DNA of 48,195 bases from Eubacteriales bacterium. Its GTDB lineage: Bacteria > Bacillota > Clostridia > Lachnospirales > Lachnospiraceae. The notes beneath the pieces were generated by a model. The model did no database searches and had not been told where the DNA came from. It was given only the letters and a program-made list of their open reading frames with translations. Shown one piece after another: positions 5,228-28,214 of the stretch (position 1 is its first letter; each line of letters begins with the position of its first letter). The DNA is taken from the NCBI GenBank assembly GCA_030526005.1, contig JAUNDP010000018.1, positions 1-48,195 on the forward strand. The letters are read 5' to 3'. The translations under genes and the position numbers were made by a program.

Positions 5228-6790
5228 TTACAGAGTATCAAAATATTCTTTCATCTCCCCTACGGTCATTCCTGTATTTTTCTTAAATACTTTATAAAAA
5301 TAAGTAGGATTGAGATAGCCGACTCTCTCTCCGATGTCTTTAATCCGCACATCTTTTTGTCTCAGCATTAAAATTGCCTCCCGAATTCGTATATCTGTCA
5401 GCATCTCCACAAATGTGCTGTTATTTTTTTGTTTTAACAGCCGGCTCAGATAAAAGGAACTGATGCCTGCATATTCTGCCACCTCATCAAGAGAAATATC
5501 TTTCATGTAATTCTGCTCCATATAAAGAATCGCTTTTTCTTCATAAGAAGTATGTTTTTCCTCTTTTTTTATCTTTCTCTGAAACTGTCGTATGATCTGT
5601 ACTGCCTGTGTCATCATTTCTTCTTCCTTTTGGCACTCCTGCATTTTTTTCAAAATATCCTGATAAGAGAACTGGCAGAACATATCCAGTTCATTTTTAT
5701 CATGAAGTTTTTTGTATACGTCCATCAGAAATGAAATCATTTCCATCTGTATGTTTTCTCTGTTCCAGTTCCCTCTTAAGATCTGCTCCAGTTTCTTTTT
5801 CAGCTTCCTATAAATTTCATCCATTTCATTGTCCAGAAGTTTGGATACGATTTCTTCCACAAATTCTTCCTGAAAAATCGTCTGCCTGCTGACTGCATTT
5901 CCTTTTTCATAAAAGATTACAGGCTTTGCAGACTGTGACACTGCAATTTTACTCTCCCGCAAGGCTTCCCCCAATTTTTCAAATTCATATTTCCATCTGC
6001 TCACTCCGAAGCGCATCTGTGTCTCTTCCTGCTCAAAAATCTTTTTATTTAATACCTGCAGCAGATTTTCCATCCATTCTCTGTAATTTTCTTCTGTCAT
6101 CTGATTTCCGGCAAGAAAATGGAGATATAGTACATTTTGGTATCGTCTTATCTGAAAACGGCAGAATTTTTTTAATTCTGCGCGAATGATCTGTTCTATT
6201 TTTTTCAGACGTATATGATCTCTTTTCTCTGTCATCACTGCCGTCACAAACACACTTCCTCTGTATACCATCTTTTCATTTTTTAAATAGAGTAAGAAAC
6301 TTTTTTCACTCGGTGTTCCCAGAATAATGGAAGACATCATCTCTTCTTCTATAATCTCTTTCATCTGGTCAATCATCTCCGTGGACACTTTCGTCTTCTG
6401 ATCTGCTTCTTTTTCCTGATCGATCATCTGGCACACCCTTTTGATTGTCTGACAAAATTTTTCCTGATCCGTTGGTTTTAAAATATAGTCGCACGCTCCC
6501 AGTACAATCGCTTTTTGTATCAGTGCAAAGTCGCTGTATGCCGTGTTAATAATCATTTTAACAGAAAGGGATTTCAATTTTAAAATTTCAAGCGCTTCCA
6601 GTCCATTTAATCCTGGCATGTTAATATCGACAATCGCAATATCCGGTTTATTTTCTGTGACGCTTCTGATCAAGTCTACCCCATTGTATACACTAGGCAG
6701 GATCTCAACGTCTTCAAAATAATTTCTCATCATCATTTCCAAGCCCTGACACTCAATCGGCTCATCATCTGCTATCAAAACACGATACAT
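5228..6790 (-). CDS. AraC-type response regulator (YesN-like), sensor module 1
   Basis: This is a cytoplasmic DNA-binding response regulator. The receiver domain (residues 1-120) has acidic residues ADDE at 7-10, phospho-acceptor Asp55 in IVDINMPG, and the conserved Lys in ILKPTD. A variable middle region (about 150-410) resembles the long linker of YesN proteins. The C-terminal 100 residues form an AraC-type double helix-turn-helix with SSFYLSRLLKQKN and VGYLNPTYFYKVFKKNTG. A TTG nine bases upstream is possible, but ATG at 6790 has the better spacing to AAAGGAG (520 residues). It is the last gene of a binding protein-kinase-regulator operon. Its target genes are unknown; the closest hydrolase is the secreted esterase at 9590. 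Confidence 0.9.
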   Translation of the reverse strand: MYRVLIADDEPIECQGLEMMMRNYFEDVEILPSVYNGVDLIRSVTENKPDIAIVDINMPGLNGLEALEILKLKSLSVKMIINTAYSDFALIQKAIVLGACDYILKPTDQEKFCQTIKRVCQMIDQEKEADQKTKVSTEMIDQMKEIIEEEMMSSIILGTPSEKSFLLYLKNEKMVYRGSVFVTAVMTEKRDHIRLKKIEQIIRAELKKFCRFQIRRYQNVLYLHFLAGNQMTEENYREWMENLLQVLNKKIFEQEETQMRFGVSRWKYEFEKLGEALRESKIAVSQSAKPVIFYEKGNAVSRQTIFQEEFVEEIVSKLLDNEMDEIYRKLKKKLEQILRGNWNRENIQMEMISFLMDVYKKLHDKNELDMFCQFSYQDILKKMQECQKEEEMMTQAVQIIRQFQRKIKKEEKHTSYEEKAILYMEQNYMKDISLDEVAEYAGISSFYLSRLLKQKNNSTFVEMLTDIRIREAILMLRQKDVRIKDIGERVGYLNPTYFYKVFKKNTGMTVGEMKEYFDTL

Positions 6791-6821
6791 TTTTCTCAAA
6801 ACTCCTTTCCCGCATAGATTT

Positions 6822-8345
6822 TCACCTGCTCTCCCACGGCATTCTGATCACAATTTTTGTCTTTACCATCGGAATGCTTTCCATCTCAAATGATGCCTTC
6901 TCTCCATAAAATAGTTTAATCCTCATGTATACATTTGCAAGCCCTATTTTTTCTCTCTGCATCTTTGGGCAGTCGAGGTCTTTTCTGATCTTTTCTATCT
7001 GTTCCTGTGTTATTCCATACCCATTGTCCTCCACAGAAATCTCCCCCATTTTTCTTTCCAGATCGTATTTTGTCCGTATTTTGATCTGACCGTCTTTCAG
7101 ATATCCGCCTACTCCATGTGTAATTGCATTTTCCACTAAAGGCTGAAGAATCAGACACGGTACCTGTATCTGATGAAACCGCTCGTCCAAATCAAACTCA
7201 AAAGAAATCCGATCCCCAAACCGCTGTTCCTGAAGGTAGACATAATTCCCTAGCATTTCCATCTCCCGTGCTAATGTCACAGACTTTCCCATATAATCTA
7301 AGCTGTATCGCAGAAGCTGGGCTGTCTTCTGGAGCAAAAAGACGGTCTTATCTGAATCTCCCATATATGCCGTCTTTGAAATCATATTTAAAGTATTGAA
7401 TAAAAAATGCGGATTCATCTGCATCTGAAGCGCTTTCAGCTCACTTGTCCGCAGCAGATTTGTAATCCGAAGATTCTCCAGTTCTTTTTCACGAAGCGCT
7501 ACCTTTGCACTGGCATTTTCTTCGATCTCCTGCATTTGCTGTTTGATCTTTGCAATCATAGTATTAAATGCGTGAACCATCAGCTGCATTTCTGCGTCGA
7601 TCTTCTCTCCTGTGATTTCCACACACTGAAACTGCAAAAGTTTCCCTGATAAGATCTCCCCGGATGCCTTTGTCAGCGCATCAATCGCAATATTAATCTT
7701 ATTTGCCAGTTTTCTGGCATATGCCAGTCCTATGCCAAGCAATAAAAGAAGCATCGCACTCAGCTCTATATAATAAAAATATTCTCTTTCATTCATCATT
7801 TTTTTCTCTGCGCCGATGTCTTCCATCATCTCCATCTCCAGCGTCTTAAATTCATTGTAGATTGTCTGATAAACATTCTGCATTTTTTCATATTCCTGAT
7901 TGATCTTTGAGGCAAGCTCCGGCTGCATTCTTTCCTGTTGTACCTGTCCCATATATCTGTATACGCACTCCAGTGATTCCTCATATGTTCGGATCATCCC
8001 TTTTACATCGGTTACATCCCTTTGGAATACCGTATTTTCTTTTCTGCCGCTCAATTTATTCAAAAAGTCATTCATCTTCACCCGACACGATTCCATACTC
8101 TTTTTTTCTTCTTCGCTGCCTTTCTGTGTATACGCTCTCACATATCCATTCAGCTCGTCGAGCTGGAAATAAAACTGATTCAGATTTAAAAGCTGTTCCA
8201 TGCTTCTTTCGTAGTTTTGCTTTATCGCCATATGGACCATGATTGTGACACCGTTCAGCAGGATTGCGATTCCAAGAGTAAGCGCAAAAAACTGCATCAG
8301 TCTCTGTTTCGTTGTTGTATCTGTTTTTTTTAATAAATATGCCAT
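6822..8345 (-). CDS. LytS/YesM-type sensor histidine kinase, module 1
   Basis: This is a membrane histidine kinase of the His_kinase/HATPase_c (LytS/YesM) class. It has a membrane helix near residues 18-36, an extracytoplasmic helical region (about 40-190), a second helix (about 192-210), and a HAMP-like and coiled segment. The phospho-acceptor motif MQMNPHFLFNTLN has His313. The ATP-binding domain shows LVENAITHG and VEDNGYGI. The start overlaps the binding-protein gene by 16 bp and is preceded by AGGGGGGC, so translation is coupled. The gene order matches XylFII-LytS-YesN sensors, in which a sugar-binding protein signals through the kinase ectodomain. The ligand is unknown. Confidence 0.9.
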   Translation of the reverse strand: MAYLLKKTDTTTKQRLMQFFALTLGIAILLNGVTIMVHMAIKQNYERSMEQLLNLNQFYFQLDELNGYVRAYTQKGSEEEKKSMESCRVKMNDFLNKLSGRKENTVFQRDVTDVKGMIRTYEESLECVYRYMGQVQQERMQPELASKINQEYEKMQNVYQTIYNEFKTLEMEMMEDIGAEKKMMNEREYFYYIELSAMLLLLLGIGLAYARKLANKINIAIDALTKASGEILSGKLLQFQCVEITGEKIDAEMQLMVHAFNTMIAKIKQQMQEIEENASAKVALREKELENLRITNLLRTSELKALQMQMNPHFLFNTLNMISKTAYMGDSDKTVFLLQKTAQLLRYSLDYMGKSVTLAREMEMLGNYVYLQEQRFGDRISFEFDLDERFHQIQVPCLILQPLVENAITHGVGGYLKDGQIKIRTKYDLERKMGEISVEDNGYGITQEQIEKIRKDLDCPKMQREKIGLANVYMRIKLFYGEKASFEMESIPMVKTKIVIRMPWESR

Positions 8346-9310
8346 TGCGCCCCCCTGCCTTTATTTATTTCCATCTCATCTATATTCTCTTTCTTTATAC
8401 TTTTTATTTCTGTATAATCGACAGGCAAAACTTCCTTATCTTCCATTGAATTTTTGATCGCTTTCACTGCCCGATATCCCATTTCATAAGAATTTTGATA
8501 GATAGTTGAATACAATATTCCATTTTCAATATCTTCTCTTTTTAATTCGCTGACCCCAAATCCTACTACTTTCACATCATCATACTCCCCTTCTGCATCT
8601 TTTATAATCTGTGCAATGCTTGTCGCCCCATATCCTTCCGCACAAAAAACAGCCGTCAGATCTTGTTCCTCTTCCAGCATCTGTGAGATCCTTTCATTTA
8701 GGATCCGAACATCTGAATTTCCTTCCAGTATTTTTATTATCTTTAATTCCGGATACGGTGCAATCGCTTCCTGAAACCCTTCCATCCGTTCTTTCTGATT
8801 CTGTGCCTCCATCTTTGAGACAATCACAGCCATCTTTCCTTTTCCCCCTGTGATTTCAATGATATCCTTCCCTGCCATCTTTCCCGCTTCATAGTTATCT
8901 GTTCCGATATAGCAAAGCTTCTGTACCTCTTCCATATCGCTGTCCACAAGAACAACGCGGATTCCTTCCTTATCGGCCTTTTCAAGAAGAGCCCGTACTT
9001 CATCGGATTCGCCTATTCCTGCAGTCACAATTCCATCCACTTTGGCATAGATTGCACTTTCAATCGCCTGAATCTGTTTTTCTGTCTCCATTTTTGTAAA
9101 TCCCACACATTTTGTGCTGATTCCAAGATCATTTCCTGCTTTTGTAACCCCATTTGCCATGCTTCCCCAATACGCTTCATTTGCAAACGGTGCAATCAAA
9201 GTTACTCTTGGCTTTTCTTCTTCTATTTTTATATGCTCTTCCATCGTTCCAAAGATAGCCGCATTGACTGTCAGAAAAAGAACCAGCAGGATCATAATTC
9301 CTTTTTTCAC
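8330..9310 (-). CDS. Membrane-anchored sugar-binding-protein-like sensor, module 1
   Basis: This is a type I periplasmic-binding-protein fold of the ribose/xylose family (326 residues). The N-terminal hydrophobic helix (about 5-21) lacks a lipobox Cys, so it is a signal anchor or a cleaved signal. Core motifs are APFANEAYWGSMANG, VDGIVTAG, VDSDM, IGTDNYEAGKMAG and VVGFG, typical of RbsB/XylF-like proteins. The start is a GTG 9 nt after GGAGG. No permease or ATPase gene adjoins, and the stop overlaps the kinase gene, so a sensory role like XylFII in the XylFII-LytS-YesN system is likely (inference). The bound ligand, probably a small sugar, cannot be told. Confidence 0.87.
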   Translation of the reverse strand: MKKGIMILLVLFLTVNAAIFGTMEEHIKIEEEKPRVTLIAPFANEAYWGSMANGVTKAGNDLGISTKCVGFTKMETEKQIQAIESAIYAKVDGIVTAGIGESDEVRALLEKADKEGIRVVLVDSDMEEVQKLCYIGTDNYEAGKMAGKDIIEITGGKGKMAVIVSKMEAQNQKERMEGFQEAIAPYPELKIIKILEGNSDVRILNERISQMLEEEQDLTAVFCAEGYGATSIAQIIKDAEGEYDDVKVVGFGVSELKREDIENGILYSTIYQNSYEMGYRAVKAIKNSMEDKEVLPVDYTEIKSIKKENIDEMEINKGRGAQWHIY

Positions 9311-9350
9311 CCAGATATCCTCCCTCGTTTCTGTTCTATTTTAAATTGCT

Positions 9351-9379: not shown

Positions 9380-9480
9380 ATCATATACAGTATACCATAT
9401 TGTTTTCTGGTATGCAGATCGTTTCCAACAGAAAGAAATGGGCTCTCATGCTATCTATTGCAGACTATCTGTCGAAAAAC

Positions 9481-9589: not shown

Positions 9590-10933
9590 TTATTCCGGCA
9601 TGTATGGCGTTTCCTGCTGCTGTGCGAAAAGCCAGTCGCGAATTGCATCATTTGCAAAGGATGGTCTCCATGACCAGTGGGAATTCGGAACTGTTGTTCC
9701 GGCAAGATATTCTGTATACAGGACGTTTGCGCCTGACTCCTCTGCTGCCGCAAGCTGCTCTTTTGCTTCTTCTTCAGATGCTTCTCCTCTTGCATAGCCA
9801 TTCCAGCCCTGCTCATCCATTCTGCGCTCTATCACTGCGCCCTGTGCTTCCAGATCCGCAATATTGTCTCTGAATCCTGTCACACGTTCTTCTGTGTCAT
9901 CGCTTGCCACAAGCGCCCAGATTGGTTTGTCTGCAATCGCTGCCAGTCCTTCTTCACTGTATACATCAGCAGAAGCAATATTGATCTGCGCCGCATACAA
10001 ATCTGGATATGCTGTACTCAAAGCCCACGTTCCGCGTGATCCCATGGAAAGACCTGTTCCGTATATCCTGCTTGTGTCAATGTCGTACTCTCCAATCAAT
10101 TCGTCAATCACATTCTTTACATTTTCTCCATCCTGATTTGGACCAAATTCCGGATCTTCCTCTGTTCCATTGTTCTGAGACCAGCTGTGACTAGGAGACT
10201 GCGGCGCCAGCACGAAACAAGGATGTTCTTCCTGCGCATCTTCTCTGGCAAATTCCAGCGCGCTTGGATTTCCCATGAGCTGTGTCTCATTGTTGACTCC
10301 ATTGCTTCCGGACTCTCCGGCTCCATGTAAAAATACGACGAGCGGAAGCGCCTCTTCTTCCCCTTTTTCTTCATATCCCTCCGGGATATACAAACGGTAC
10401 GGAAGCTCGCTGCCATCCTCCGGGTTTGTATAAGTCAGTTCCAGAAATTCATCCACGAGCAGATTCTGCTCCGCTGTATTTGCAAAAGAACCTGCTTCCA
10501 CGATATCTCCGGATACCAGCGTCACATTTGCTGTCTGCTGAACCGTCAGATTGATCGGCAGTCTCATATTTTCTCCGTTTGCATATAAAAGAGTTCCGCC
10601 TTCTCCTGCGCCCGGTGTCAAATCCACGCTCAGTTCCACGAAAACATATTTTCCCTTTGCTTGCGCCTCTCCTTTTACTCCGCTGTTATTTACATACACT
10701 CTGCTGATCTTTCGTCCCGGAACCTTGTAAGAAGAAAGACCGATCGTTCCAGCCGCAACCTCTCCAGGATATTCGATCATCACAGAGGTTACTGCCTGTC
10801 CGTCCTCCAGCGTCTCTGCGATCGCTGTCACCCCTGTCAGCTCCACAATATTTCCAGCGTCCTCTGCGCTGACAGAAAGTCCCATCACCATCATGCCTGC
10901 CAGTAAACCTGCTGCCGCCTTATTCCATTTCAT
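9590..10933 (-). CDS. Secreted esterase with N-terminal Ig-like domain (EstA-like)
   Basis: This is an exported alpha/beta-hydrolase of 447 residues. A signal peptide (1-23) ends near SVSAED. Residues about 28-140 form a beta-rich domain resembling the Ig-like N-terminal domain of Thermotoga EstA-type esterases. The catalytic domain follows, with oxyanion motif VVFLHGAGESG (199-209), nucleophile elbow GLSMG (Ser296 at 294-298), candidate acid Asp345 or Asp346, and His419 in NSHWSW. The family includes feruloyl/acetyl-type and PHB-depolymerase-like esterases, so it probably releases acyl or phenolic groups from sugars (inference). The ribosome site AGGAGGG is strong. An extended -10 TGATATAAT (plus 10982-10990) gives it its own promoter. 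It lies 124 bp downstream of the module 2 regulator. Confidence 0.85.
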   Translation of the reverse strand: MKWNKAAAGLLAGMMVMGLSVSAEDAGNIVELTGVTAIAETLEDGQAVTSVMIEYPGEVAAGTIGLSSYKVPGRKISRVYVNNSGVKGEAQAKGKYVFVELSVDLTPGAGEGGTLLYANGENMRLPINLTVQQTANVTLVSGDIVEAGSFANTAEQNLLVDEFLELTYTNPEDGSELPYRLYIPEGYEEKGEEEALPLVVFLHGAGESGSNGVNNETQLMGNPSALEFAREDAQEEHPCFVLAPQSPSHSWSQNNGTEEDPEFGPNQDGENVKNVIDELIGEYDIDTSRIYGTGLSMGSRGTWALSTAYPDLYAAQINIASADVYSEEGLAAIADKPIWALVASDDTEERVTGFRDNIADLEAQGAVIERRMDEQGWNGYARGEASEEEAKEQLAAAEESGANVLYTEYLAGTTVPNSHWSWRPSFANDAIRDWLFAQQQETPYMPE

Positions 10934-11057: not shown

Positions 11058-11816
11058 CTATTTTGCTGTGTTTCCACTTTTTTGCACACATTGTTTTCTG
11101 TATTCTCGCGGAGATACCCCCACTCTCTGCCTGAAAACATTTGAAAAATAGGAAAGCGTCTCATATCCGCATTCCTGACTGATCAGACTGATTGGCAGAT
11201 TTGTCTTTCTAAGTAATTTTTTTGCAACGGAAAGCCTTTTTTTCTGGATATATTCCGACAGAGTGTCTCCTGTTTCTTTTTTAAATAAAGTCGACAGATA
11301 TTCCTGATTAAAACCAGCAAATTCTGCAATCTCTTTTCTTGTAATCTCCTGTGACAGATGTTCTTCAATATATTGTTTTATTTTCTCAATCATATCAGAA
11401 CCTGTCTCGTCTGTATTCTTTTCCTGTTCCATCTCCTTTTGCTTTGCCGGGAGCTTCTGCTGTGCCTTTTTTATTGCGCGCATCAGTTCTTCATTTTCAA
11501 CCGGTTTCAGCAGGTATTCGGAAACGCCAAGGCTGATTGCCTTTTTTGCATAGTGAAAGTCAGCAAAACTGCTTAGAATAATACTGATACAGCAGATTTT
11601 CTGTTCATTTACCCATTCAATTAAGTCCAGCCCGCTGCCACCCGGCATTTCAATATCGCTGATTAAAAGATCAATCTTTTCCCTCTTCAGAATTTCCATT
11701 GCTCTGTGCATGGAAAATGCTTTAAATATACCGTCAATCGAATTTTCTTTTCGGTCAATGATATTCTCTATCCCATGTACGACTGGAACATTGTCATCCA
11801 CAATCAACAAATTCAT
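11058..11816 (-). CDS. Compact AraC-type response regulator, sensor module 2
   Basis: This DNA-binding response regulator has a receiver domain with VDDN at 6-9, phospho-acceptor Asp54 in ISDIEMPGGSG, and Lys in YLLKPVEN. It joins by a short acidic linker to a C-terminal AraC-type helix-turn-helix (NQEYLSTLFKKETG and CGYETLSYFSNVFRQRVG). At 252 residues it lacks the long middle region of regulators 1 and 3. The ATG at 11816 forms an ATGA overlap with the stop of the upstream binding-protein gene and has GAGGG before it, so it is preferred over an ATG at 11837. It is the last gene of the kinase-binding protein-regulator operon. A likely target is the adjacent esterase or the divergent esterase-MBL gene (inference). 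Confidence 0.9.
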   Translation of the reverse strand: MNLLIVDDNVPVVHGIENIIDRKENSIDGIFKAFSMHRAMEILKREKIDLLISDIEMPGGSGLDLIEWVNEQKICCISIILSSFADFHYAKKAISLGVSEYLLKPVENEELMRAIKKAQQKLPAKQKEMEQEKNTDETGSDMIEKIKQYIEEHLSQEITRKEIAEFAGFNQEYLSTLFKKETGDTLSEYIQKKRLSVAKKLLRKTNLPISLISQECGYETLSYFSNVFRQRVGVSPREYRKQCVQKSGNTAK

Positions 11817-13285
11817 TTTTCTTTCGCCCTCTTCCATTCTTTATACTGCCTCTCAATCTCACGCTTTACTTCCTCTGCGCCTGCCATCTCCATCTCAGAA
11901 AGCATTTTGGGAAGATATACCGTATCATCCAGCATTCCTGTCTCCAATCCATAAATATATTGTTCTGCAATCTCATTTAATTTTTTATTCTGCTCTCTTA
12001 CCTTTGTATCATCAAAATAAAAACCTGCCGACTCTGCCGTCTTTGCATTTTTTTGAAATTCTTCTGTCTTTTCCCATAAATTCGGATCATTTCCATGCCA
12101 TATATAAGAGAGCATCTGGTTTGGAAAACTCCATCCCATATTTGGATGATATCCGGATGTATCTGCTGTCACGCCTTCTGGAAAATCAATCGTTCCATCA
12201 TCTAAAACAGTATAATGCAATCCTTCTATTCCATAAATCAAAAGATTGACCAGTTCCGCATCACTGTACAGCAGATTCAGAAATTTCATTGCTTCTTCCG
12301 GATGTTCGCATTCTTTTGTGATCCCCCATGGAGAAATCCGCACCGAAGAGTTTGTAATATACGGTTCCAGAATAGGGATAATTACCATCTCTCGCCCGGA
12401 ACTTACGCTCTCCTCCCATTCAATCCCCGGCTTACATGCACAAAAATAAGAAAATAATTTCCCTGCCTTTACCATCTCTGATCCTTTTATATTTTGTAAA
12501 GGCAATTCTTCTGGAATATATCTCAGTTCATACCATCTGCGGATCATTCCGATCCATTCCCTGTAAGAATCGGTATCATAAAAATTGACAACCTCCCCTT
12601 CATTTTCCCAGCTGAAATCAAAAATAGAATTTGGAATGGAATCATAAAAGCGATATCGCAGCAAAAATCCATTCTGTGTCCATAGCGGGGACGTCATGAT
12701 CAGATCTGGTTCCTGTTTGCTGATAAAGGAAAATAATTGATCCACATCTTGTAATGTATGAATCTTTTCTGGATCAATCTCATATTTTTCTAAAATATCT
12801 TTTCTGAAAGCAATCCCTGCTGACGCTGCGCAGTCTGCTTTTGAAGGCAGCGTATATAAATGACCATTTTGCTTTGTATTTTGGATTTCCTCCTCAGAAA
12901 CATATCGTAAAATATCCTGTCCATACTGTTCCAGCAGCTCATCCATTTCCTGATACTCAAATTCCCCTGCGATCTCTGAGGCAACATCAATCACAATCCC
13001 TTCTTTTTCCGCCATTATTTTTTCTTCCGTCTGCGTCATGGGAAGGACAGGGATAAAATGAAGATGGACGCCAATTTTTTCCCATACCATCTGATCAGCC
13101 TTTTCAAAGACAAGCTCGCAGTCCTCTGGTATCTGAAAATCGTATCGTATCATCACATTGAGCGTAACTTCTTCCTGTGCAGCGTTGGCGCTGCCTGCCC
13201 TTACTATCCACATCAAGATTAAGATTCCTGTGCACCTCTTTATTTTCTTTTTTCGTTTCTGTTCCCGCTTTTGCGCCATCTGCAT
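11813..13285 (-). CDS. Solute-binding protein, DUF3502 type, sensor module 2
   Basis: This is an exported extracellular solute-binding protein of the LipO/YtcQ-like group. It has a very basic N-terminus, a hydrophobic segment and a signal-peptidase I-like site NAAQE near residue 36, with no lipobox Cys. The C-terminal part carries the DUF3502-like pattern YGIEGLHYTVLDDGTIDFPEG and a later LSYIWHGNDPNLW. Such proteins normally feed oligosaccharides to CUT1-type ABC permeases, but none is encoded here. The ATG directly abuts the kinase stop codon, and the gene overlaps the regulator gene by 4 bp. The tight packing between kinase and regulator points to ligand sensing (inference). It is paralogous to the binding protein at 20843. 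Confidence 0.87.
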   Translation of the reverse strand: MQMAQKREQKRKKKIKRCTGILILMWIVRAGSANAAQEEVTLNVMIRYDFQIPEDCELVFEKADQMVWEKIGVHLHFIPVLPMTQTEEKIMAEKEGIVIDVASEIAGEFEYQEMDELLEQYGQDILRYVSEEEIQNTKQNGHLYTLPSKADCAASAGIAFRKDILEKYEIDPEKIHTLQDVDQLFSFISKQEPDLIMTSPLWTQNGFLLRYRFYDSIPNSIFDFSWENEGEVVNFYDTDSYREWIGMIRRWYELRYIPEELPLQNIKGSEMVKAGKLFSYFCACKPGIEWEESVSSGREMVIIPILEPYITNSSVRISPWGITKECEHPEEAMKFLNLLYSDAELVNLLIYGIEGLHYTVLDDGTIDFPEGVTADTSGYHPNMGWSFPNQMLSYIWHGNDPNLWEKTEEFQKNAKTAESAGFYFDDTKVREQNKKLNEIAEQYIYGLETGMLDDTVYLPKMLSEMEMAGAEEVKREIERQYKEWKRAKEK

Positions 13286-14944: not shown

Positions 14945-15211
14945 AAATAAAATCCTTCCTTCGCTTTCTTTTGCTGTCGCATATATTTTTCATCATACCG
15001 CATTTTTCATTGAAATTCACTAGAAATTATTTAATTTCCGTTTTTTGTTTTTGCAAGTTTCACATAGAAAACTAACATTTTCTCAATTTTTTCTAATATT
15101 ATTGATAGAATTTTCTCAACAAAGCGATTATAGTATTCTTATCTGAAATGCGTCTGTACAGAACGGAAATGTACCGCACGCAAATTTTTTTTAAGAAAGG
15201 GATGTATCATT
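14945..15211. promoter_or_regulatory. Divergent control region, module 2 / esterase-MBL
   Basis: This 267-bp region lies between divergent genes. Two exact ATTTTCTCAA copies (15077-15086 and 15110-15119) are 33 bp apart, about three helical turns. They sit just upstream of a plausible -10, TATAGT (15129-15134), for the esterase-MBL gene. The second copy would overlap the -35 position, as an activator site would. A TTGATA (15102-15107) is at a poor 21-bp spacing. On the minus strand, TATGAT near plus 14993-14998 could serve the kinase operon. Confidence 0.4.
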
Positions 15212-20614: not shown

Positions 20615-20659
20615 TTTCACTCCTCCTTTAATATTCTTGTTACCAGATGGCAAAATCTT

Positions 20660-20730
20660 ATCATAGATTTTTTTCATTCGATATAAGGATTCCGACTTCT
20701 TGATAATACAAATCCGACCTTTTATCAGAT
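20660..20730 (-). promoter_or_regulatory. Promoter with direct repeats for the permuted GH3 gene
   Basis: On the minus strand TATGAT (plus 20660-20665) is preceded after 17 bp by a poor -35, CCTTAT (20683-20688). Two bases further upstream begin direct repeats with core TCCGAC (plus 20691-20696 and 20713-20718), 22 bp apart, with further T.TT matches. A weak -35 flanked by helically phased repeats suggests activation by an AraC-type regulator, probably the product of the divergent operon (inference). Confidence 0.5.
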
Positions 20731-20842: not shown

Positions 20843-22300
20843 ATGAGAAAATTATTTTTTGTTCTCCCTGCTGTTCTTCTCCTTTTGACCGGCTGTCACG
20901 CTCAGGAGAAAGAACATTCCGAAGCAGCAGAGATTCCTACTATACAGATCTATACCTATAAAAAAATAGATATCGATTTTCCAGACAGTGAGATGGTGAT
21001 CGAGCAAATTAATGACTATATCGAGCCTCTGATTCACGCTCAGATCGAGGTGACATTTCTTTCTGATTCCTTTTATACAAGCCGCATCCATCAGATTCTC
21101 GACTCCAGTCAGCAGCTTGATCTGTTTCTCCTTTCCAACGGAAATGAACTTCGGCAATTATATCAGGACGGAACTCTTTCGCCCTTGAATGATCTGCTGG
21201 CCCAATATGCTCCAGATCTTGTTTCCACAGTGGGCGAGGAATATATGCAGGGAGGATATGACTCAAGTACACAGGAGTACTATGCGGTTCCCACCTGCCG
21301 CGACTACAGTCTGCGCCCAGGTCTTGAATATCGCAGTGATCTGGCTGAGCAATATCATCTCGATATGGAAAACGTCCATACGCTGTCGGATCTCACAGAA
21401 ATCTTTGCCTCTCTCAAAGAGCAGAATCCTCTCATCTATCCGCTTGCCCCAAACAGCATCTACACAAATTGGGACATGCTTGGAGATGGTCTGGGCGTTC
21501 TGATGTATGACCGGATGGATACCAAAGTTGTGAATCTTTATGAGACAGAAGAGTACCGGCAATATCTTTCCTTGCTCCGCGACTGGAATCTGAAAGGATA
21601 TCTGTACGATACCTCTGAAAATCCCGGAAGCAATGCGTATTATCTGAAATCAGGATCGGTCTTTTCCTGTTTTGCCAATGGAAAACCCGGATTTACCGTA
21701 CAGGAAAGAAGAGATTTAAATTGTCCCATAGGATTTACTGCTCTGGAAAAAGATTCCATTTCCACAGACCGCATCGCCTGTTGGATGTGGGCTGTTCCGT
21801 ACAGTTCCGAATATAAAAAAGAAGCCATTCAGTTTTTAAATTTATTATATCATGATAAAAATCTTGTCAATCTTTGGACCTATGGCATAGAAGGAGTCCA
21901 TTATCAGATTCTGGATGAAGAAAAAGACCTGATCGGTTTTCCGGAAGGCGTTGATTTTTTAAACAGCGGATATCCTTTGTTTACCGAATACGCCAGCGGC
22001 AATCAATATCTCGCCCATATATGGGAAGGGAATCCGCCTTCGATCTGGGAAGAAATGAAAGAGTTCAACGACAATGCCGTCCGTTCCAGAGCATTTGGCT
22101 TTCAATATGATGACGCTTCCGTGAAATCAGAAGTGATCGCCTGCAAAGCAGTGGTCAAAAAATATAAGAACGGTTTTCTGCATGGCATTTATGATCTGGA
22201 TACCGTTCTGCCGGAATTTATTCAAGAATTAAAAGAGGCGGGCATCGACCGGATTATCGCTGAAAAGCAGCGCCAGCTTGATGACTGGCTTGCCGGTTAG
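20843..22300 (+). CDS. Solute-binding lipoprotein, DUF3502 type, sensor module 3
   Basis: This is an exported solute-binding lipoprotein of 485 residues. The signal peptide ends in the lipobox LLTGC (Cys18), so it should be tethered to the outer face of the membrane. A typical binding-protein fold follows. The C-terminal section has the DUF3502-like YGIEGVHYQIL, FPEGVDFLNSGYP and LAHIWEGNPPSIWEE motifs, matching the module 2 protein at 11813. The kinase and regulator genes follow within 21 and 2 bp, and no permease is encoded nearby, so it probably presents a ligand to the kinase (inference). Lipid anchoring would keep it beside the sensor. Oligosaccharides are the usual ligands of this family. 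Confidence 0.88.
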   Translation: MRKLFFVLPAVLLLLTGCHAQEKEHSEAAEIPTIQIYTYKKIDIDFPDSEMVIEQINDYIEPLIHAQIEVTFLSDSFYTSRIHQILDSSQQLDLFLLSNGNELRQLYQDGTLSPLNDLLAQYAPDLVSTVGEEYMQGGYDSSTQEYYAVPTCRDYSLRPGLEYRSDLAEQYHLDMENVHTLSDLTEIFASLKEQNPLIYPLAPNSIYTNWDMLGDGLGVLMYDRMDTKVVNLYETEEYRQYLSLLRDWNLKGYLYDTSENPGSNAYYLKSGSVFSCFANGKPGFTVQERRDLNCPIGFTALEKDSISTDRIACWMWAVPYSSEYKKEAIQFLNLLYHDKNLVNLWTYGIEGVHYQILDEEKDLIGFPEGVDFLNSGYPLFTEYASGNQYLAHIWEGNPPSIWEEMKEFNDNAVRSRAFGFQYDDASVKSEVIACKAVVKKYKNGFLHGIYDLDTVLPEFIQELKEAGIDRIIAEKQRQLDDWLAG

Positions 22301-22321: not shown

Positions 22322-24061
22322 ATGGCAGAGACTTCAAAATATCATTCTTTTAAATTTGTTTTATCGGCGAAACGGATTCTGATTGGGACATTGATTGTGA
22401 TTTTTTCTATGATTATTTTTGTCATATTCCGGATGCAACATCTTGCAGTATCCTTTGCATACGATCAGATTTTTTCTTCCAATCAGGCGGCGCTGAATTT
22501 CTATGCGCAGTCTTTAGATGAATCCGTCGCTCATCTCGATCAGAATTTTTATCATCTGCTGTCTGATAATCTGAATATTTCTCTTTTGGAAATTCAGGCA
22601 GAGGAATCAGAAATCTTCAATATAAAGGTGCAGCTCGATGAAGATCTGAGACGGCTGTATGCCTCAAATGATCTTTTAAACAGTGTATTTTTATATTCGC
22701 CGTCCGGAACAGGTCAGGAATTTATTTTTTACAGCACGAAACTGATGTCTGCATCGGATACGATTCCTTTTAAGGACTATGTGATTCGCACATGCGAAAC
22801 TTCCATGAAAGGCGAAAAATTTTCCAGCCCGAACTGGACCGTTCATATTATCAATGACATTCCTTATCTGATGAGAATCATCTGTATCGATCAGACATTC
22901 TGCGGCGGTTTTATCCGCCTCGATACGATTCAGCAACAAATTGATCAGATTTACCACGGCTCACTGGGTTCTTCCGTCATCCTGACAATGGACAATCAGC
23001 TTATCTCCGGCGACACTCGATTTTCCAGACTTCCTGATGACTCTGACTCTGTTGTGCAGTATCGCGGCGAGAACTATATTTTTTCCTGTGTGCACCCTGA
23101 CATCCTGGAGTTAAAAATCGGGATCGCTGTCCCTACAAAAAACATCTCCAGCCAGATGAACTCCGATCTGACAGGCTTTATCAGTATCTCTGCCATTTTG
23201 ATTCTTCTCGTTTTGTTTGTGTATATCTGCCTCTTTTTTATGTACCGTCCGTTCTTATATCTTGCAGATTCAATGAAAATTGTAGCAGATGGAAATCTCC
23301 ATTTCCGCATCACAAAACATTCCTCTGTCCACGAGACCGCTAAAATTTATCAGACCTTCAATGTGATGCTTGATGAGATGGAACATTTGAAATCGGAAGT
23401 CTATGAAAAAGAGCTGGAGAAAGAAAAAGTGACGAAACAGTTTTTAAAGATGCAGCTGAAATCTCATTTTTTCTTAAATTGCTTTAATATCATCTATTCG
23501 CTTGCCGAGACGAAGCGATATGAATTGATCCAAAAACTGACGATCTGTCTCGTCAAATATTTCCGTTATCTCTCCCTCAGCAATGAGGAACTGGTAAATT
23601 TAAAAGATGAGATTGATCATATCAAAAATTATATGGAAATCCAGATGATGCGTTTTCCCGGACAGATTGTCTTCTCCTGTGATATCGAAGAACAGCTTTA
23701 TTCCTGCAAGATACCGATGCTGATGCTTCAGACTTTTTTAGAGAACGCCGTAAAATATGGAATCGATTTTTCTGTTCCAAGCCCGATCACACTGTCTGCT
23801 GTCTCTGAAAAGCAAAACGGCGCAGACGGCATTTTGTTTACGATCACGGACTGTGGAGAAGGATTTTCGGAAGAACTTCTGGCCTTCTATAAAAAAGACG
23901 ATCTGTCCGTGCCATCCAGTCAGGAACATGGGATCGGTATTATCAATGTCAAGAAACGCCTCCGTCTGATCTACGGCGGAGCGGAAACGATTTCCATTGA
24001 AAATCATCTGCCGTCAGGCGCTCAGATTAAAATTTGGATTCCAAAAGGGGAGGAAAAGTAA
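22322..24061 (+). CDS. YesM-type sensor histidine kinase, module 3
   Basis: This is a membrane histidine kinase of 579 residues. It has a membrane helix at about 20-38, an extracytoplasmic Cache-like domain to about 275, and a second helix at about 283-308, followed by a HAMP segment and a coiled coil rich in Lys and Glu. The phospho-acceptor His382 lies in MQLKSHFFLNC, a variant of the usual QxNPHFLxN in which Asn-Pro is replaced by Lys-Ser. The ATPase domain shows FLENAVKYG, ITDCGEGFS and GIGIINVKKRL. The ribosome site GGAAAGGGAAA lies before the ATG. The kinase is paralogous to the one at 13286. Expected partners are the upstream lipoprotein and the regulator that starts 2 bp after its stop. 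Confidence 0.9.
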   Translation: MAETSKYHSFKFVLSAKRILIGTLIVIFSMIIFVIFRMQHLAVSFAYDQIFSSNQAALNFYAQSLDESVAHLDQNFYHLLSDNLNISLLEIQAEESEIFNIKVQLDEDLRRLYASNDLLNSVFLYSPSGTGQEFIFYSTKLMSASDTIPFKDYVIRTCETSMKGEKFSSPNWTVHIINDIPYLMRIICIDQTFCGGFIRLDTIQQQIDQIYHGSLGSSVILTMDNQLISGDTRFSRLPDDSDSVVQYRGENYIFSCVHPDILELKIGIAVPTKNISSQMNSDLTGFISISAILILLVLFVYICLFFMYRPFLYLADSMKIVADGNLHFRITKHSSVHETAKIYQTFNVMLDEMEHLKSEVYEKELEKEKVTKQFLKMQLKSHFFLNCFNIIYSLAETKRYELIQKLTICLVKYFRYLSLSNEELVNLKDEIDHIKNYMEIQMMRFPGQIVFSCDIEEQLYSCKIPMLMLQTFLENAVKYGIDFSVPSPITLSAVSEKQNGADGILFTITDCGEGFSEELLAFYKKDDLSVPSSQEHGIGIINVKKRLRLIYGGAETISIENHLPSGAQIKIWIPKGEEK

Positions 24062-24062
24062 A

Positions 24063-25679
24063 ATGTTTCATGTTTTAATTGTAGATGACGAGATTTTTTC
24101 TGTCGAAGCGGTTCTTTGCGCAATCGACTGGAAAGCCCTTCATGTGGACGAAGTTTTTTCCGCATACAATATGAAAATGGCAAAAAATATTTTTGCTGAG
24201 CATCAGATTGATGTCATGTTATGCGATATCGAGATGCCGCGCGGCAGCGGCATTGACCTTGCCGCATGGGTGAAAGAACATTCCCCAAAGACGGTCAATA
24301 TTTTTCTCACCTGCCACTCTGATTTTCAGTATGCAAAAGAGGCGGTTTCACTCGGCGCGTTTGAATATCTTTTAAAACCGATTGAATATCCAAAACTGCA
24401 GGAATACCTTGCGCACGCCCTTGAGGAATATCAAAAGCGCATGGATTTAAATTCTTATAAAGACAAATGGTTTTTCCATCATGAGATTGTGCAGGATAAA
24501 TTCTGGAGCGATCTTTTGCTCAGAAAATCAGACCACTCCCCTGATTTTCTGTTTCATGATGCAAAAAAGAAAGATATCTTTCTGTCCGATCAGGCAGAAT
24601 ATCTTCCTGTATTGGTCTGTATTCAAAATTATCAGGAACTGTCTGATTCCTGGTACGGAAATGATCTTGACTTTGCATTCCGCAATATCATCTATGAACT
24701 GCTGGATCTGGAAGAATGTTATACTGCTGTCGCCGCAACGTCTCTGAATGAAAGAATGGTTCTTCTCAGTCCTTCTGTGAATGATGCAGAAAATGCCAGA
24801 TCAGCCTCTGACTTTCTTTCGCTGATCAAGGCGCAGTTAATCACATTTTCCAAAGCTTTTCAGCAATATTTTCACGCAAAGCTTTCTATTGTGATAGGAA
24901 AACAAGTTCCATATTTACTTTTGCCCCAGGAATATGACCGTCTGCATGAAAAGGTCTGCTGTTCTGAAAAAGAAGAGTCCGCAGCCCAGATTCATAGTCT
25001 TCTGGACTCTTATCCAGACCTGCTTTCAAAGTTAAATGAATGGGTTGATTTTGTTTTTTCAAACCGTCCCAATCTGCTCATCGCTGAATTTGACCGCCTC
25101 TTCGGTGAAGATTTAAAAGGCGCCATCCAGTTTTACGACACGCTTGTACAGGCAGTCTTTATTGAATTGCTCAAAAAAAATATCAGCGCCTATACCATCT
25201 TTTCCGATGAGCGCCTTCGTCTTCAGAAGGACCGGGCGACACCCGAAAGCATGAAGATGCTGCTCTGCAACCTGTGTCTCGCCATTTTTGAAAAGACGCA
25301 GAAAATTTTCTCCAATGATACAGTCGTTGAACAGGTCAAATCCTATATCACCCGAAATCTGTCGGATGATCTCTCAAGAGAACGTCTTGCCAGACAGTTT
25401 TTCCTCAATCCGGATTATCTCTCCCGCCTCTTTAAAAAAGAGACCGGATATTCTCTGCAGGCATACATCGTGGAAGAACGTATCAAAAAGGCAAAATTTC
25501 TGCTTGAAACGACAGAGCTGTCGATCAGTGAGATCCATGAACAGTCTGGGTTTGCAAACAGCTCTTACTTTTCCAAAATTTTCAAAAGAGAGACTGGTCT
25601 GACCCCACAGGAATACCGTCAGCACATCCAGACAACGCAGTTGGCGACAAAACCACGCAGTTGGCGACAAAGAACTTGA
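24063..25679 (+). CDS. AraC-type response regulator (YesN-like), sensor module 3
   Basis: This DNA-binding response regulator has 538 residues. The receiver domain has VDDE (7-10), phospho-acceptor Asp55 in LCDIEMPRGSG, and Lys in YLLKPIEY. A long middle region (about 130-430) precedes the C-terminal AraC-type double helix-turn-helix (NPDYLSRLFKKETG and SGFANSSYFSKIFKRETGLTPQEYR). The ATG at 24063 is chosen because GGGGAGGAAAAG precedes it and the receiver fold begins there. The last 15 residues (TTQLATKPRSWRQRT) are not conserved-looking. They are encoded by two 17-bp repeats with a 20-bp period, which shift frame between copies. Those repeats adjoin the promoter of the next gene. The GH3 gene at 25797 is the likely target (inference). 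Confidence 0.9.
   Translation: MFHVLIVDDEIFSVEAVLCAIDWKALHVDEVFSAYNMKMAKNIFAEHQIDVMLCDIEMPRGSGIDLAAWVKEHSPKTVNIFLTCHSDFQYAKEAVSLGAFEYLLKPIEYPKLQEYLAHALEEYQKRMDLNSYKDKWFFHHEIVQDKFWSDLLLRKSDHSPDFLFHDAKKKDIFLSDQAEYLPVLVCIQNYQELSDSWYGNDLDFAFRNIIYELLDLEECYTAVAATSLNERMVLLSPSVNDAENARSASDFLSLIKAQLITFSKAFQQYFHAKLSIVIGKQVPYLLLPQEYDRLHEKVCCSEKEESAAQIHSLLDSYPDLLSKLNEWVDFVFSNRPNLLIAEFDRLFGEDLKGAIQFYDTLVQAVFIELLKKNISAYTIFSDERLRLQKDRATPESMKMLLCNLCLAIFEKTQKIFSNDTVVEQVKSYITRNLSDDLSRERLARQFFLNPDYLSRLFKKETGYSLQAYIVEERIKKAKFLLETTELSISEIHEQSGFANSSYFSKIFKRETGLTPQEYRQHIQTTQLATKPRSWRQRT
25635..25671 (+). repeat. Two 17-bp direct repeats, probable activator half-sites
   Basis: ACGCAGTTGGCGACAAA occurs exactly at 25635-25651 and 25655-25671, separated by 3 bp (20-bp period). 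The pair lies inside the end of the regulator gene and stops 4 bp before the -35 box of the GH3 promoter. Two same-facing 17-bp half-sites abutting a -35 box is the classic layout of AraC-family activator sites. Confidence 0.6.
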
Positions 25680-25704
25680 AATCGTGAAATCGTTCAATTA
25701 TAAT
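25676..25704 (+). promoter_or_regulatory. Near-consensus promoter of the secreted GH3 gene
   Basis: TTGAAA (25676-25681, overlapping the regulator's stop codon), 17 bp, then TATAAT (25699-25704). The predicted leader is about 85 nt and contains an AGAATCAC/GTGATTCT stem (25729-25736 with 25758-25765) and no T-run, so the stem is more likely an mRNA structure than a terminator. Confidence 0.7.
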
Positions 25705-25796
25705 GAGGTCATCTTGAAAAAAATGTGTAGAATCACGAATATCTTTTATGTTCTCAGGTGATTCTGTATATTTTAGGAAAATTGGAGGAAGAAAAC

Positions 25797-28214
25797 ATGA
25801 AAAGAAGCAACAAAAAGAGACTTCAAAAAGCTGCATCTGCTGCTATGGTAGTTGCAATGGCTGCATCTTCTATGTCTACTGCTTTTGCAGCAGATGCTTC
25901 TGCTGCAAAATACAGCGTGATCGAGACAGAATGGGGATTCAACAAAGTAGAACAGGACGGCGGAAAAACTTTGAGCTACTCCCCTGAATCAGGCGTTACT
26001 TTACTGGAAGACGACGGATATGCTTTCAAGGATTTAAACAAGAACGGAACACTTGATACATATGAAGACTGGCGTCTGACTACAGAAGAAAGAGCAGCAG
26101 CTCTGGCTGATATGATGGTGGCTGACGGACGTGAAGGTATCGAATCCATCGCCGGCTTGATGCTTTACAGCGCTCACACTGCTGTACAGTCTGAGACAGT
26201 TTCCGGAACAGAGATCGACTCCCGTGCGCGTACACAGGACGGAACAACTACAATGGACGCAATCACAGACAACAAACTGCGTCACGTTCTTGTTACTTCC
26301 ATCGCAAGCCCTGAAATTGGCGCTAAATGGAGCAATAACCTGCAGTCTATCGTAGAAGGTATGGAATATGGTATTCCTTGCAACAACAGTTCCGACCCTC
26401 GCCATGCTGCAAGCGCAGACTCCAGCCAGCAGTATGTTGCAGGCGAATCAGGAACCATCTCTCAGTGGCCTGGAACAGTAGGTCTTGCTGCTACTTATGA
26501 TCCGGAAATCGTAAAACAGTTTGGTAATATCGTAGGTATTGAATACCGTGCACTCGGTATCGGAACCGCTCTGTCTCCACAGATCGACCTCGCTTCTGAG
26601 CCAAGATGGAGCCGTGTAAGCGGAACATTCGGCGACAATGTAAAACTGACCGTGGATCTGTCCAGAGCCGTTGTAGACGGATATCAGTCTACTTATGACG
26701 AAGAGGGAAATGACCTTGGATGGGGTCCTGACTCTATCGTTGCAATGATCAAACACTGGCCAAGCGGCGGTCCTGAAGAAGGCGGACGCGACGGTCACTA
26801 TGGATTTGGTAAATATGCAGTATATCCAGGAAATGGATTTGAAACTCAGCTGAAAAACTTTACAGAGGGCGCTTTAAATCTGGACGGCGCTACAGAAATG
26901 GCAGCCGCAGTTATGCCATACTACACAATCAGCCACGGACAGGATCCGACTGGTGAAGACGTAGGTAATGGTTTCAGCAATTATATGATCAATGAATTAC
27001 TCCGCGGCGAATACAACTTTGACGGTGTTGCCTGCACAGACTGGATGATCACAGCAGACGCAGATAACGACGCTGTATTCCAAGGCAAATGCTGGGGTGT
27101 TGAAGATATCTCCGTCGCAGAACGTCATTATAAATGTCTGATGGCTGGTATGGATCAGTTCGGAGGAAATAACGTAATCGGACCTGTTATGGAAGCTTAC
27201 GACTTAATGGTTGAGCGTCAGGGACAGACATTCGCAGACGAAAGATTTGCTGAATCTGCAAGAAGAATCCTGACAAATATGTTCAACTTAGGATTATTTG
27301 AAGATCCATATCTGGATGTAGATGAGACAATCGCTACTGTTGGAAATCCAGAATTTATGACAGCCGGATACGAAGCACAGCTGAAATCTGTTGTCATGGT
27401 TAAGAATAAAAACAATGTCATCGCTCCATACGATGAATCTGCTGAGAAGAAGACCGTTTACGTTCCAAGCTACACATCTGTTTCTACAGATCCAGAGACA
27501 ATGGTAGTTACTACTGTTGAAAAACCAAGTATTCAGGTACAGGCTCTGTCCAAATATTTCAACGTAACTACAAATCCAGAAGAAGCCGATCTGGCTGTTA
27601 TCGGAATGGACAGCCCATCTACAGGTTCTGGATACAGCACAGAAGATCTGGAAGCCGGCGGAAACGGATACGTTCCGATCTCCCTGCAGTACAGCGATTA
27701 TACAGCTGACACAGCAAGAGAGACAGCAATCGCAAATGACCCTGGAAAGACATTCATTGATTCCGAGACAGGCGAAATGGTTTACACAGATACTGTTGAA
27801 AACCGTTCTTATAAAGGAAAGACAGTAAGCGCTTCCAATGCGTATATGCTGGATGCTCTGAAAGAGACAAAAGAAGCAATGGGCGACAAGCCTGTCATCG
27901 TTTACATGAGAGAAAGCAAACCTGTCGTATTCTCAGAAGTAGAACCTCTGGCTGACGCTATCGTGATCGGATATGGCATCAGCGATCAGGCAGCTGTTGA
28001 AATCATCGCAGGCGCAACCGAACCATCCGGATTACTTCCAATGCAGGAGCCAGCTAACATGGAAACAGTGGAAGCTCAGTTTGAAGACGTTCCTATGGAT
28101 ATGGAATGCTACGTTGACTCTGAAGGTCACACATATGATATCGCATTCGGTATGAACTGGTCTGGCGTTATCAATGATGAACGTGTAGCTACTTATGGAC
28201 CAGATGCTCAGTAA
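25797..28214 (+). CDS. Secreted GH3 glycosidase, normal domain order
   Basis: This is an exported glycoside hydrolase family 3 enzyme of 805 residues. The signal peptide ends near STAFAAD (about 33). The TIM-barrel domain has the substrate-loop pattern KHWPSGGPEEGGRDGHYGFG and the nucleophile Asp415 in ACTDWM. The C-domain follows (about 530-805) with VIVYMRES and EPSGLLPMQ. No fibronectin or Ig tail is present. The KHWPxGGPxEGG group includes exo-acting beta-glucosidase-like enzymes, so it probably trims beta-linked sugars from a glycoside outside the cell (inference). ATG 25797 follows TTGGAGGAAG and begins the signal peptide; an in-frame ATG at 25758 has no such support. It has its own promoter at the end of the module 3 regulator gene. 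Confidence 0.92.
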   Translation: MKRSNKKRLQKAASAAMVVAMAASSMSTAFAADASAAKYSVIETEWGFNKVEQDGGKTLSYSPESGVTLLEDDGYAFKDLNKNGTLDTYEDWRLTTEERAAALADMMVADGREGIESIAGLMLYSAHTAVQSETVSGTEIDSRARTQDGTTTMDAITDNKLRHVLVTSIASPEIGAKWSNNLQSIVEGMEYGIPCNNSSDPRHAASADSSQQYVAGESGTISQWPGTVGLAATYDPEIVKQFGNIVGIEYRALGIGTALSPQIDLASEPRWSRVSGTFGDNVKLTVDLSRAVVDGYQSTYDEEGNDLGWGPDSIVAMIKHWPSGGPEEGGRDGHYGFGKYAVYPGNGFETQLKNFTEGALNLDGATEMAAAVMPYYTISHGQDPTGEDVGNGFSNYMINELLRGEYNFDGVACTDWMITADADNDAVFQGKCWGVEDISVAERHYKCLMAGMDQFGGNNVIGPVMEAYDLMVERQGQTFADERFAESARRILTNMFNLGLFEDPYLDVDETIATVGNPEFMTAGYEAQLKSVVMVKNKNNVIAPYDESAEKKTVYVPSYTSVSTDPETMVVTTVEKPSIQVQALSKYFNVTTNPEEADLAVIGMDSPSTGSGYSTEDLEAGGNGYVPISLQYSDYTADTARETAIANDPGKTFIDSETGEMVYTDTVENRSYKGKTVSASNAYMLDALKETKEAMGDKPVIVYMRESKPVVFSEVEPLADAIVIGYGISDQAAVEIIAGATEPSGLLPMQEPANMETVEAQFEDVPMDMECYVDSEGHTYDIAFGMNWSGVINDERVATYGPDAQ

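Follow-up and report, generated by a model that had tools for sequence, protein, structure and literature searches.

Permease-less DUF3502 binding protein-kinase-regulator cassettes beside secreted hydrolases are probable dedicated sensors in a Lachnospiraceae genus

Solute-binding proteins (SBPs) dedicated to signalling are already known, namely XylFII and CuaD. The XylFII-LytS-YesN system of Clostridium beijerinckii, which concerns D-xylose, consists of a Peripla_BP_4 SBP, a LytS-type kinase and a YesN-type regulator, and it manages carbohydrate import according to the accessible part of the discussion in PMC10384115. In the cellobiose system CuaDSR of Ruminiclostridium cellulolyticum, a signalling-only SBP is combined with its own class-I kinase and a YesN/AraC regulator. 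The accessible text of the same paper states that CuaD binds the ectodomain of the kinase CuaS, that the transport SBP CuaA does not, and that CuaD is a predicted lipoprotein encoded beside a complete importer operon, its target (PMC10384115). Here we describe an island at positions 5228-28214 of a 48,195-nucleotide stretch of DNA (the window; contig JAUNDP010000018.1 of assembly GCA_030526005.1, Eubacteriales bacterium, Lachnospiraceae). Three sets of SBP, LytS/YesM-type kinase and AraC-type regulator (modules A, B and C) lie in it together with four secreted hydrolases. Module A resembles XylFII-LytS-YesN, and the SBPs of modules B and C are DUF3502 proteins. From gene content and comparison of genomes, we hold with good confidence that modules B and C and five other DUF3502 cassettes of this genome are dedicated three-component sensors controlling neighbouring extracellular hydrolases, and not an importer. 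New here are the DUF3502 family as signalling SBP, the missing transporter class and the secreted enzymes as apparent output. Since signalling SBPs had been described, an earlier note on this DNA went too far in calling the island an undescribed system.

Other described systems share parts of this arrangement. The YesM-YesN-LplB-YtcP-LplA importer operons of Paenibacillus and of relatives within the family encode a homologous SBP (LplA, DUF3502), kinase and regulator, whereas both permeases are missing from the loci of the genus studied here and were not found in its genomes. In the NgtS-NgtP1P2/TCS07 system of Streptococcus pneumoniae, ngtS is induced by the TCS07 regulator along with glycosidases; the accessible text presents NgtS as an importer subunit and gives it no sensing role (PMC7075642), unlike the role proposed for SBP_B, whose model is closest to NgtS among solved structures. 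XydS/R of Clostridium cellulolyticum is a two-component system in which an AraC-type regulator switches on secreted hydrolases, and no SBP is reported for it in the accessible portion of PMC3572039, unlike modules B and C. According to the same portion, 12 of 12 AraC-type two-component pairs of that species adjoin ABC-transporter genes (PMC3572039), in contrast to the modules here, which are without importer genes. The difference from CuaD is similar: for modules B and C a cognate importer was not found, and candidate operators lie beside secreted hydrolases. A literature search over titles and the beginnings of abstracts, with most subscription papers outside its coverage, returned no account of permease-less DUF3502 sensors; the one paper retrieved for DUF3502 was unrelated.

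The three sets and the four hydrolases were identified by Pfam, and the coordinates and gene calls of the earlier note were right (Table 1). As that note had also stated, no importer permease or ATPase was found by the Pfam scan of 5228-28214; the closest ABC ATPase gene, at 28813-29475, is flanked by genes without a Pfam match. The hydrolases are two secreted esterases, one of which is fused to an MBL domain, and two secreted GH3 enzymes. All four N-termini are signal peptide-like as judged by eye, and catalytic motifs are present in both esterases, in the MBL domain and in both GH3 enzymes. Because the genes within a module overlap or lie at most 22 bp apart, modules A, B and C are each probably co-transcribed. 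HK_A and HK_B match the phospho-acceptor pattern PHF[LF][LFC]N, HK_C has SHFFLN at that site, and the N-box and G-box are kept in all three kinases. As in systems of the CuaDSR kind, an SBP, a class-I kinase and an AraC-type regulator are encoded together in modules B and C, and judged by gene content the SBP is separate from a transport SBP or importer role. The modules are unlike in detail: RR_B is short, SBP_B is without a lipobox, and the enzyme partners are GH3 for module C and esterases for module B.

Some features of these genes were noticed in addition. Short response regulators of about 240-260 residues, which join the receiver directly to the AraC-type domain without the usual middle region, comprise RR_B and the regulators of loci L051, L053, L197, L198 and L199. 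In the GH3 at 16910-20677 and the GH3 genes of L053, L054, L187 and L199, the C-terminal domain is encoded ahead of the N-terminal catalytic domain. The best NCBIfam name for the first GH3 of the island, exo-alpha-L-arabinopyranosidase, was not used, its score being 323 bits against a cutoff of 1300. NCBI profiles of hydroxyacylglutathione hydrolases and B3 lactamases match the MBL part, with sub-cutoff scores only.

The genome that carries the window (G000; 2.51 Mb, 68 contigs, 95% complete) encodes 7 DUF3502 proteins, 14 LytS/YesM-type kinases and 28 PF00528 permeases. All 7 DUF3502 SBPs lie in cassettes with a His_kinase protein and a regulator. Six of the cassettes directly include a large GH3 with a signal-like N-terminus, and the seventh, module B, lies between the esterase and the esterase-MBL. 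The PF00528 permease nearest to any of these SBPs is about 9.2 kb away and is the sole permease found in the five other loci (14.7-20 kb) and the window. As for the kinases, 7 of the 14 are partnered by a DUF3502 protein, 4 by a Peripla_BP_4 protein and 1 by another SBP_bac_1 protein. For one more, the gene cluster also encodes three Peripla_BP_4 proteins and an ABC ATPase of two ABC domains, and the last adjoins a carboxylesterase, with no SBP among the four neighbours scanned.

We then compared the genus with its family. DUF3502 was present in 60 of 200 family genomes drawn, including G000 and G105. Flanks were obtained from 34 of the 58 other DUF3502 genomes, the loci being chosen from the listed, strongest matches, so that weak or unlisted matches are under-represented. 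The genus members compared were G000, G105 and G200; G152 belongs to another genus. With home-made profiles, 123 SBPs scoring at least 200 bits were classed by the presence of a permease within 3.5 kb and a kinase within 5 kb, and 8 of the 123 rows were set aside as cut by contig ends. In the genus, none of the 21 uncensored DUF3502 SBPs had a permease within this distance, and 20 of them had a kinase. Outside the genus, a permease was present for 77 of 94 uncensored SBPs (74 of 80 omitting genome G067). This survey, which the earlier note had proposed, agrees with its statement that DUF3502 proteins are normally transporter subunits and sets the genus apart from the rest of the family. A GH3 or an esterase stood by 22 of the 23 genus SBPs: GH3 within 5 kb of 18, and esterases by four of the remaining five.

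Permeases encoded elsewhere in the genomes were sought with profiles. With the LplB profile, true members scored at least 309 bits, a second class about 187-285 bits and others at most 152 bits. The LplB class was not found in G000, G105, G200, G152 or G164, where all hits were of the kind not exceeding 152 bits; the best scores in the genus were 128.7 bits in G000, E 2.9e-27 in G105 and E 4.7e-27 in G200. With the YtcP profile the upper classes run together from 456 down to 186 bits, and the class was not found in the genus (best 103.7 bits in G000, 122.9 bits in G200 and E 3.5e-23 in G105). Thus, in the 95% complete genome G000, cognate LplB/YtcP permeases were found neither adjacent to the SBPs nor elsewhere. 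Since all 7 SBPs lie in cassettes and no matching transporter class was found, the SBPs probably serve solely in the detection of food molecules outside the cell. The proposal of the earlier note that the binding proteins are dedicated sensors was strengthened, as the genome searches came out against transport.

These searches also bear on the alternative that the DUF3502 proteins are importer subunits, with permeases encoded elsewhere and shared in trans, and that the two-component genes regulate the locus only. A precedent may be seen in G067 (loci L135-L145), which has 28 DUF3502 matches, many of those examined without a nearby permease or kinase and several adjoining AraC genes; LplB-class permeases are nevertheless present in that genome, and its SBPs possibly share them in trans. 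G000 itself has three CUT1 permease pairs that could be shared in the same way. However, each of these pairs adjoins its own SBP and scores at most 142 bits with the LplB profile, whose own members score 405-482 bits, and no permease of the LplB/YtcP class was found in G000, G105 or G200. We therefore regard sharing in trans as quite unlikely, and dedicated sensing as the better account of the genus.

In a wider check of Clostridia, 76 genomes with strong DUF3502 hits were chosen from 110 with a match, and in 6 of the 76 no LplB hit was below E 1e-90. Of these six, two (G330 and G540) are 65-71% complete, in two (G234 and G532) the hits are as strong as those of the second class, and two (G364 and G479) are clear. 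With so few cases, DUF3502 genomes lacking the LplB class are uncommon. G364 and G479 belong to another Clostridia family and are 99% complete. At the one of two DUF3502 loci examined in each, the gene order is kinase, regulator, DUF3502 SBP and giant protein, without a permease. The giant protein, cut by the end of the stretch at 2,528 residues in G364 and 2,484 residues in G479, contains a carboxylesterase domain and three stretches each of EstA_Ig_like and MBL, with alpha/beta-hydrolase domains. This is the domain combination of the window's two esterases. Since the SBPs of G364 and G479 fall apart from SBP_B in the FastTree tree, the association of the cassette with esterase-MBL looks repeated.

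Thirteen family genomes have weak DUF3502-like hits and no LplB class. Their loci of about 3 kb were not counted; the neighbours are mostly exporter-like or unassigned, with one SBP adjoining a regulator (L224) and one adjoining second-class permeases (L225). By eye, the weak DUF3502-like SBPs of L214, L227, L230, L233, L235, L236 and L239, in genomes without LplB-class permeases, adjoin either small lipoprotein-like genes or membrane genes and genes resembling ABC ATPases.

Lipid anchoring also differs between the two kinds of SBP. A strict lipobox pattern was matched by 71 of 74 permease-linked SBPs versus 7 of 24 sensor-clade SBPs, or 11 of 24 when CTxC sites also count; L101, among the 24, is a fragment without the true N-terminus. 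Three of 77 permease-linked rows and L195, all incomplete, were left out of the count. Among the three permease-linked failures, two are lipobox-like by eye and one has a misplaced start. Because the rows are related, Fisher values overstate their independence. A clear lipid-anchor site is thus missing in about half of the sensor clade, which speaks against a role as shared importer subunits. In the FastTree tree SBP_B falls in a 69-row clade, 55 of which lack a somewhat looser lipobox pattern, and several of these end in signal-peptidase-I-like sites as judged by eye. The anchor-less SBPs may be released or be retained by the kinase alone.

Among the 7 cassettes of G000, SBP divergence was correlated with kinase-ectodomain divergence (r 0.83, 6 of 5040 permutations) and with regulator divergence (r 0.73, 6 of 5040), whereas SBP and GH3 divergence were uncorrelated for the 6 GH3 enzymes (r 0.32, 118 of 720). 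The SBP-kinase correlation was 0.91 in G105 and 0.95 in G200; since the cassettes there are largely orthologues of those in G000, these are not independent tests. From these sequence divergences, the evolutionary unit is likely SBP-kinase-regulator, with exchangeable enzymes. This pairing is relevant to another explanation, namely that the ligand is sensed directly by the ectodomain of the YesM kinase and the SBP does no more than increase sensitivity, as is partly so for CuaS without CuaD. Overproduced CuaSR without CuaD still responds to cellobiose according to the accessible text of PMC10384115, and the HK_B ectodomain is folded in the predicted model. However, the purified kinase ectodomain of CuaDSR bound none of three sugars tested (same partial source, PMC10384115), and in the genomes compared here the SBP and kinase genes remain together despite changes in gene order, and their divergences track each other. 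Direct sensing by the kinase is therefore rather unlikely, and a co-receptor role of the SBP is preferred.

The enzymes linked to the modules were compared among relatives. In G105 (L098), as in the window, the esterase of 9590-10933 separates modules A and B; in G200 (L197) it is absent from that place. An esterase-MBL lies near module B in G105, G200 and G152, at a distance of about 3 kb with genes between in G152. Module C has a divergent GH3 in G000 and G105, and in G152 the nearest divergent enzyme is a GH2. Since the enzyme linked to SBP_C is not fixed, the ligand is not readable from one enzyme. The G152 esterase-MBL (L181, 2128-6805) has a twin-arginine-like N-terminus and lies near TatC- and TatA-like genes, by eye. 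For metagenome relatives of SBP_B, HK_B and esterase-MBL (P0029 and P0269; P0007, P0126 and P0242), the longest contigs are equal (87509; 24771), which suggests the same linkage in further lineages.

AraC-family regulators usually bind direct repeats in tandem, spaced by about two turns of the helix. Hand-picked promoter regions next to hydrolases were examined in nine orthologous groups with half-site widths of 7-10; group B had been noticed by eye before the register test, and of group C only the two orthologues were retained later on. Whatever the half-site width, a tandem-repeat register of 21 bp ranked first in five of the nine groups (B, D, E, F and I). The simulated chance of 21 bp as top register was 0.0385 per group, giving a binomial value of 9.4e-6, and omitting group B leaves 4 of 8 groups (1.4e-4). 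None of 200 simulations attained the 21-bp score of B, D, F or I. In groups D and E the repeat region serves the GH3 alone. Half-site sequences differ from group to group, as would fit a separate operator for each regulator. The candidate RR_B operator is conserved in the window, L098 and L197, and it has one exact match only in the window, no second exact copy being found there. The candidate RR_C repeat is common to the orthologue L095, is not top-ranked when the paralogue L096 is added, and is weaker than that of module B. The conserved 21-bp tandem repeats are thus likely regulator sites. Their position beside hydrolases, together with the conserved linkage, supports the earlier suggestion that the modules control the neighbouring enzymes.

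The named relatives of SBP_B found outside Lachnospiraceae-type records are three Paenibacillus proteins with 34-35% identity, and these (L209-L211) belong to operons of the order kinase-regulator-LplB-YtcP-SBP. This order suggests that the permeases were lost in the genus; a history in which an operon of the Paenibacillus type lost its permeases and the SBP was retained as a sensor is likely. In an IQ-TREE tree of 118 rows, from which five long or partial rows were dropped, the 23 genus SBPs and two of G152 group as a single clade (SH-aLRT 99); use of all 123 rows lowers the support to 96 and brings in one long-branch row. Other permease-less, kinase-linked SBPs (L152/L187, L167 and L240/L241) are placed elsewhere in the trees and look independent of the sensor clade. 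Permease loss, likely by the comparison with Paenibacillus, would also fit degenerate operons, in which the permeases decayed and the remaining genes are relics without coherent function, and one SBP copy of G105 (G105:C55) carries an in-frame stop. However, the window genes are open and their catalytic motifs intact, orthologous cassettes are kept in the three genus members and partly in G152, and the promoter repeats are conserved. Decay of this kind is highly improbable, and we retain the view that the cassettes are functional sensors.

Several results weigh against dedicated sensing with hydrolases as output. G000 is only 95% complete and spread over 68 contigs. The flanks obtained for the genus locus L097 show no recognised GH3 or esterase. 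About half of the sensor-clade SBPs, SBP_C included, keep a lipobox-like site. Permease-linked cassettes show the SBP-kinase correlation too (r 0.60, n=37), so it is not specific to sensors. As for the repeats, the 21-bp score of group E was reached in 4 of 200 simulations, groups G and Est have no 21-bp top register, and group H has it only at some widths. Group C gave 22 bp with the orthologues only and a tie of 18, 21 and 31 with the paralogue (width 9). The region of groups B, F and I is common to the hydrolase and the divergent kinase operon, and its repeat could act on either. Enrichment in single promoters, with 9 of 10 identical bases at 21 bp required, was modest (9 of 40 cassette versus 5 of 70 other promoters, p 0.034). 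Foldseek/VIA-align rows mainly concern the kinase domain, and the fold of the kinase ectodomain was not resolved by the structure searches. Finally, in a FastTree tree to which metagenomic relatives were added (155 rows) the sensor SBPs do not stay together, and the permeases may accordingly have been lost once or several times.

In the mechanism that we propose, the SBP would capture a glycan-like molecule outside the cell. The loaded SBP would contact and activate the adjacent YesM-type kinase, phosphorylation would follow, and the AraC-type regulator would bind the promoter repeats. The predicted effect is activation of the adjacent GH3 or esterase gene in place of an importer. The ligand class can only be guessed, with the N-glycan binder NgtS as nearest solved SBP and GH3, GH2 and esterases as enzymes; acylated glycosides, named in the earlier note, are a guess. 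A broader reading, which we put forward tentatively and at slightly less than even chances, is that a whole importer-SBP family was turned into signalling-only co-receptors, part of them freed of the lipid anchor. They would form a multi-copy network to sense outside and digest outside, uncoupled from uptake, each copy having its own compound, its own secreted enzyme and its own 21-bp tandem operator. A second Clostridia family would have arrived separately at this arrangement, with the same esterase-MBL.

Several source records name DUF3502 proteins "putative aldouronate transport system substrate-binding protein". If the cassettes are sensors, such transporter names would mislabel entire clades, and SBP counts would give too high an estimate of transport capacity in such genomes. 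The cassettes would also offer a natural set of paired SBP, kinase and operator variants, in which kinase-SBP recognition and AraC-type operator specificity are directly testable, and a handle on the extracellular compounds monitored by a Lachnospiraceae genus.

Module A is likely the same sensor device built on a XylFII-like SBP. The best PDB match of SBP_A is 5xsj_X (E 1.6e-40); in the accessible part of its source, 5XSJ is described, in connection with XylFII-LytS, as the ligand-binding domain of LytS in complex with its binding protein (PMC6321045). The XylFII-like Peripla_BP_4 SBP adjoins the kinase, and the LytS/YesM kinase and a YesN-type regulator lie in the module A operon, in keeping with the XylFII-LytS-YesN gene arrangement named in the earlier note. 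By analogy with XylFII-LytS, SBP_A would act as a kinase co-receptor. Sequence searches with the HK_A ectodomain gave no match to a solved LytS ectodomain, and no importer genes adjoin module A. The kinase part of HK_A matches the solved chain 6swj, the GanS kinase domain; in the PDB sequence search with the ectodomain, the best hit was an unrelated chain (E 0.021), and none reached 0.001 outside the kinase domain. Among ten Pfam-scanned neighbours of the three Peripla_BP_4 modules outside the window, two esterases, one GH3 and no importer genes were found. For SBP_B, an AF2 model (pLDDT 92.9) has NgtS (5suo) as nearest fold, and Pfam, the model and the structure search place the DUF3502 domain on an SBP fold.

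Table 1. Genes and candidate operators of the island, with positions in the window
Feature	Position	Strand	Details
RR_A, module A	5228..6799	-	523 aa; receiver and AraC-type helix-turn-helix; Pfam Response_reg, HTH_18
HK_A, LytS/YesM-type kinase, module A	6822..8345	-	507 aa; His_kinase 86.2 bits, HATPase_c
SBP_A, XylFII-like binding protein, module A	8330..9310	-	Peripla_BP_4 E 1.4e-52
Secreted esterase	9590..10933	-	EstA_Ig_like and alpha/beta hydrolase; GLSMG at 294; signal-like N-terminus
RR_B, short response regulator, module B	11058..11837	-	259 aa; Pfam
SBP_B, DUF3502 binding protein, no lipobox, module B	11813..13285	-	DUF3502 E 1.1e-16
HK_B, YesM-type kinase, module B	13286..14944	-	HAMP and folded ectodomain (model) of roughly 220 residues
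Candidate RR_B operator between HK_B and esterase-MBL	15071..15100	+	tandem repeat, 21-bp register
Secreted esterase-MBL fusion	15212..16801	+	GMSIG at 150, HNHVDH at 344; Pfam
Secreted GH3 with Ig-like tail	16910..20677	-	Pfam; signal-like N-terminus, TDW motif
Candidate RR_C operator between GH3 and SBP_C	20691..20718	+	TCCGAC repeat, 22-bp register
SBP_C, DUF3502 binding protein, module C	20843..22300	+	DUF3502 E 1.1e-24; lipobox LLTGC
HK_C, YesM-type kinase, module C	22322..24061	+	His_kinase E 6.3e-18
RR_C, YesN-type response regulator, module C	23997..25679	+	560 aa; Pfam
Secreted GH3, second type	25758..28214	+	signal-like N-terminus, TDW; Pfam

Rfam and tRNA searches of the window gave no match. 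Adjoining the island, positions 28295-34824 hold the ABC ATPase gene mentioned above, genes without a Pfam match, a DUF6034 protein gene (31225-32580) and an OmpR-type two-component pair (32738-34824); this might be an exporter-type cluster. Near the start of the window, a GMP-synthase-like gene lies at 50-1357. Its glutaminase domain matches Pfam positions 1-78 of 190 only, and the gene thus seems shortened.

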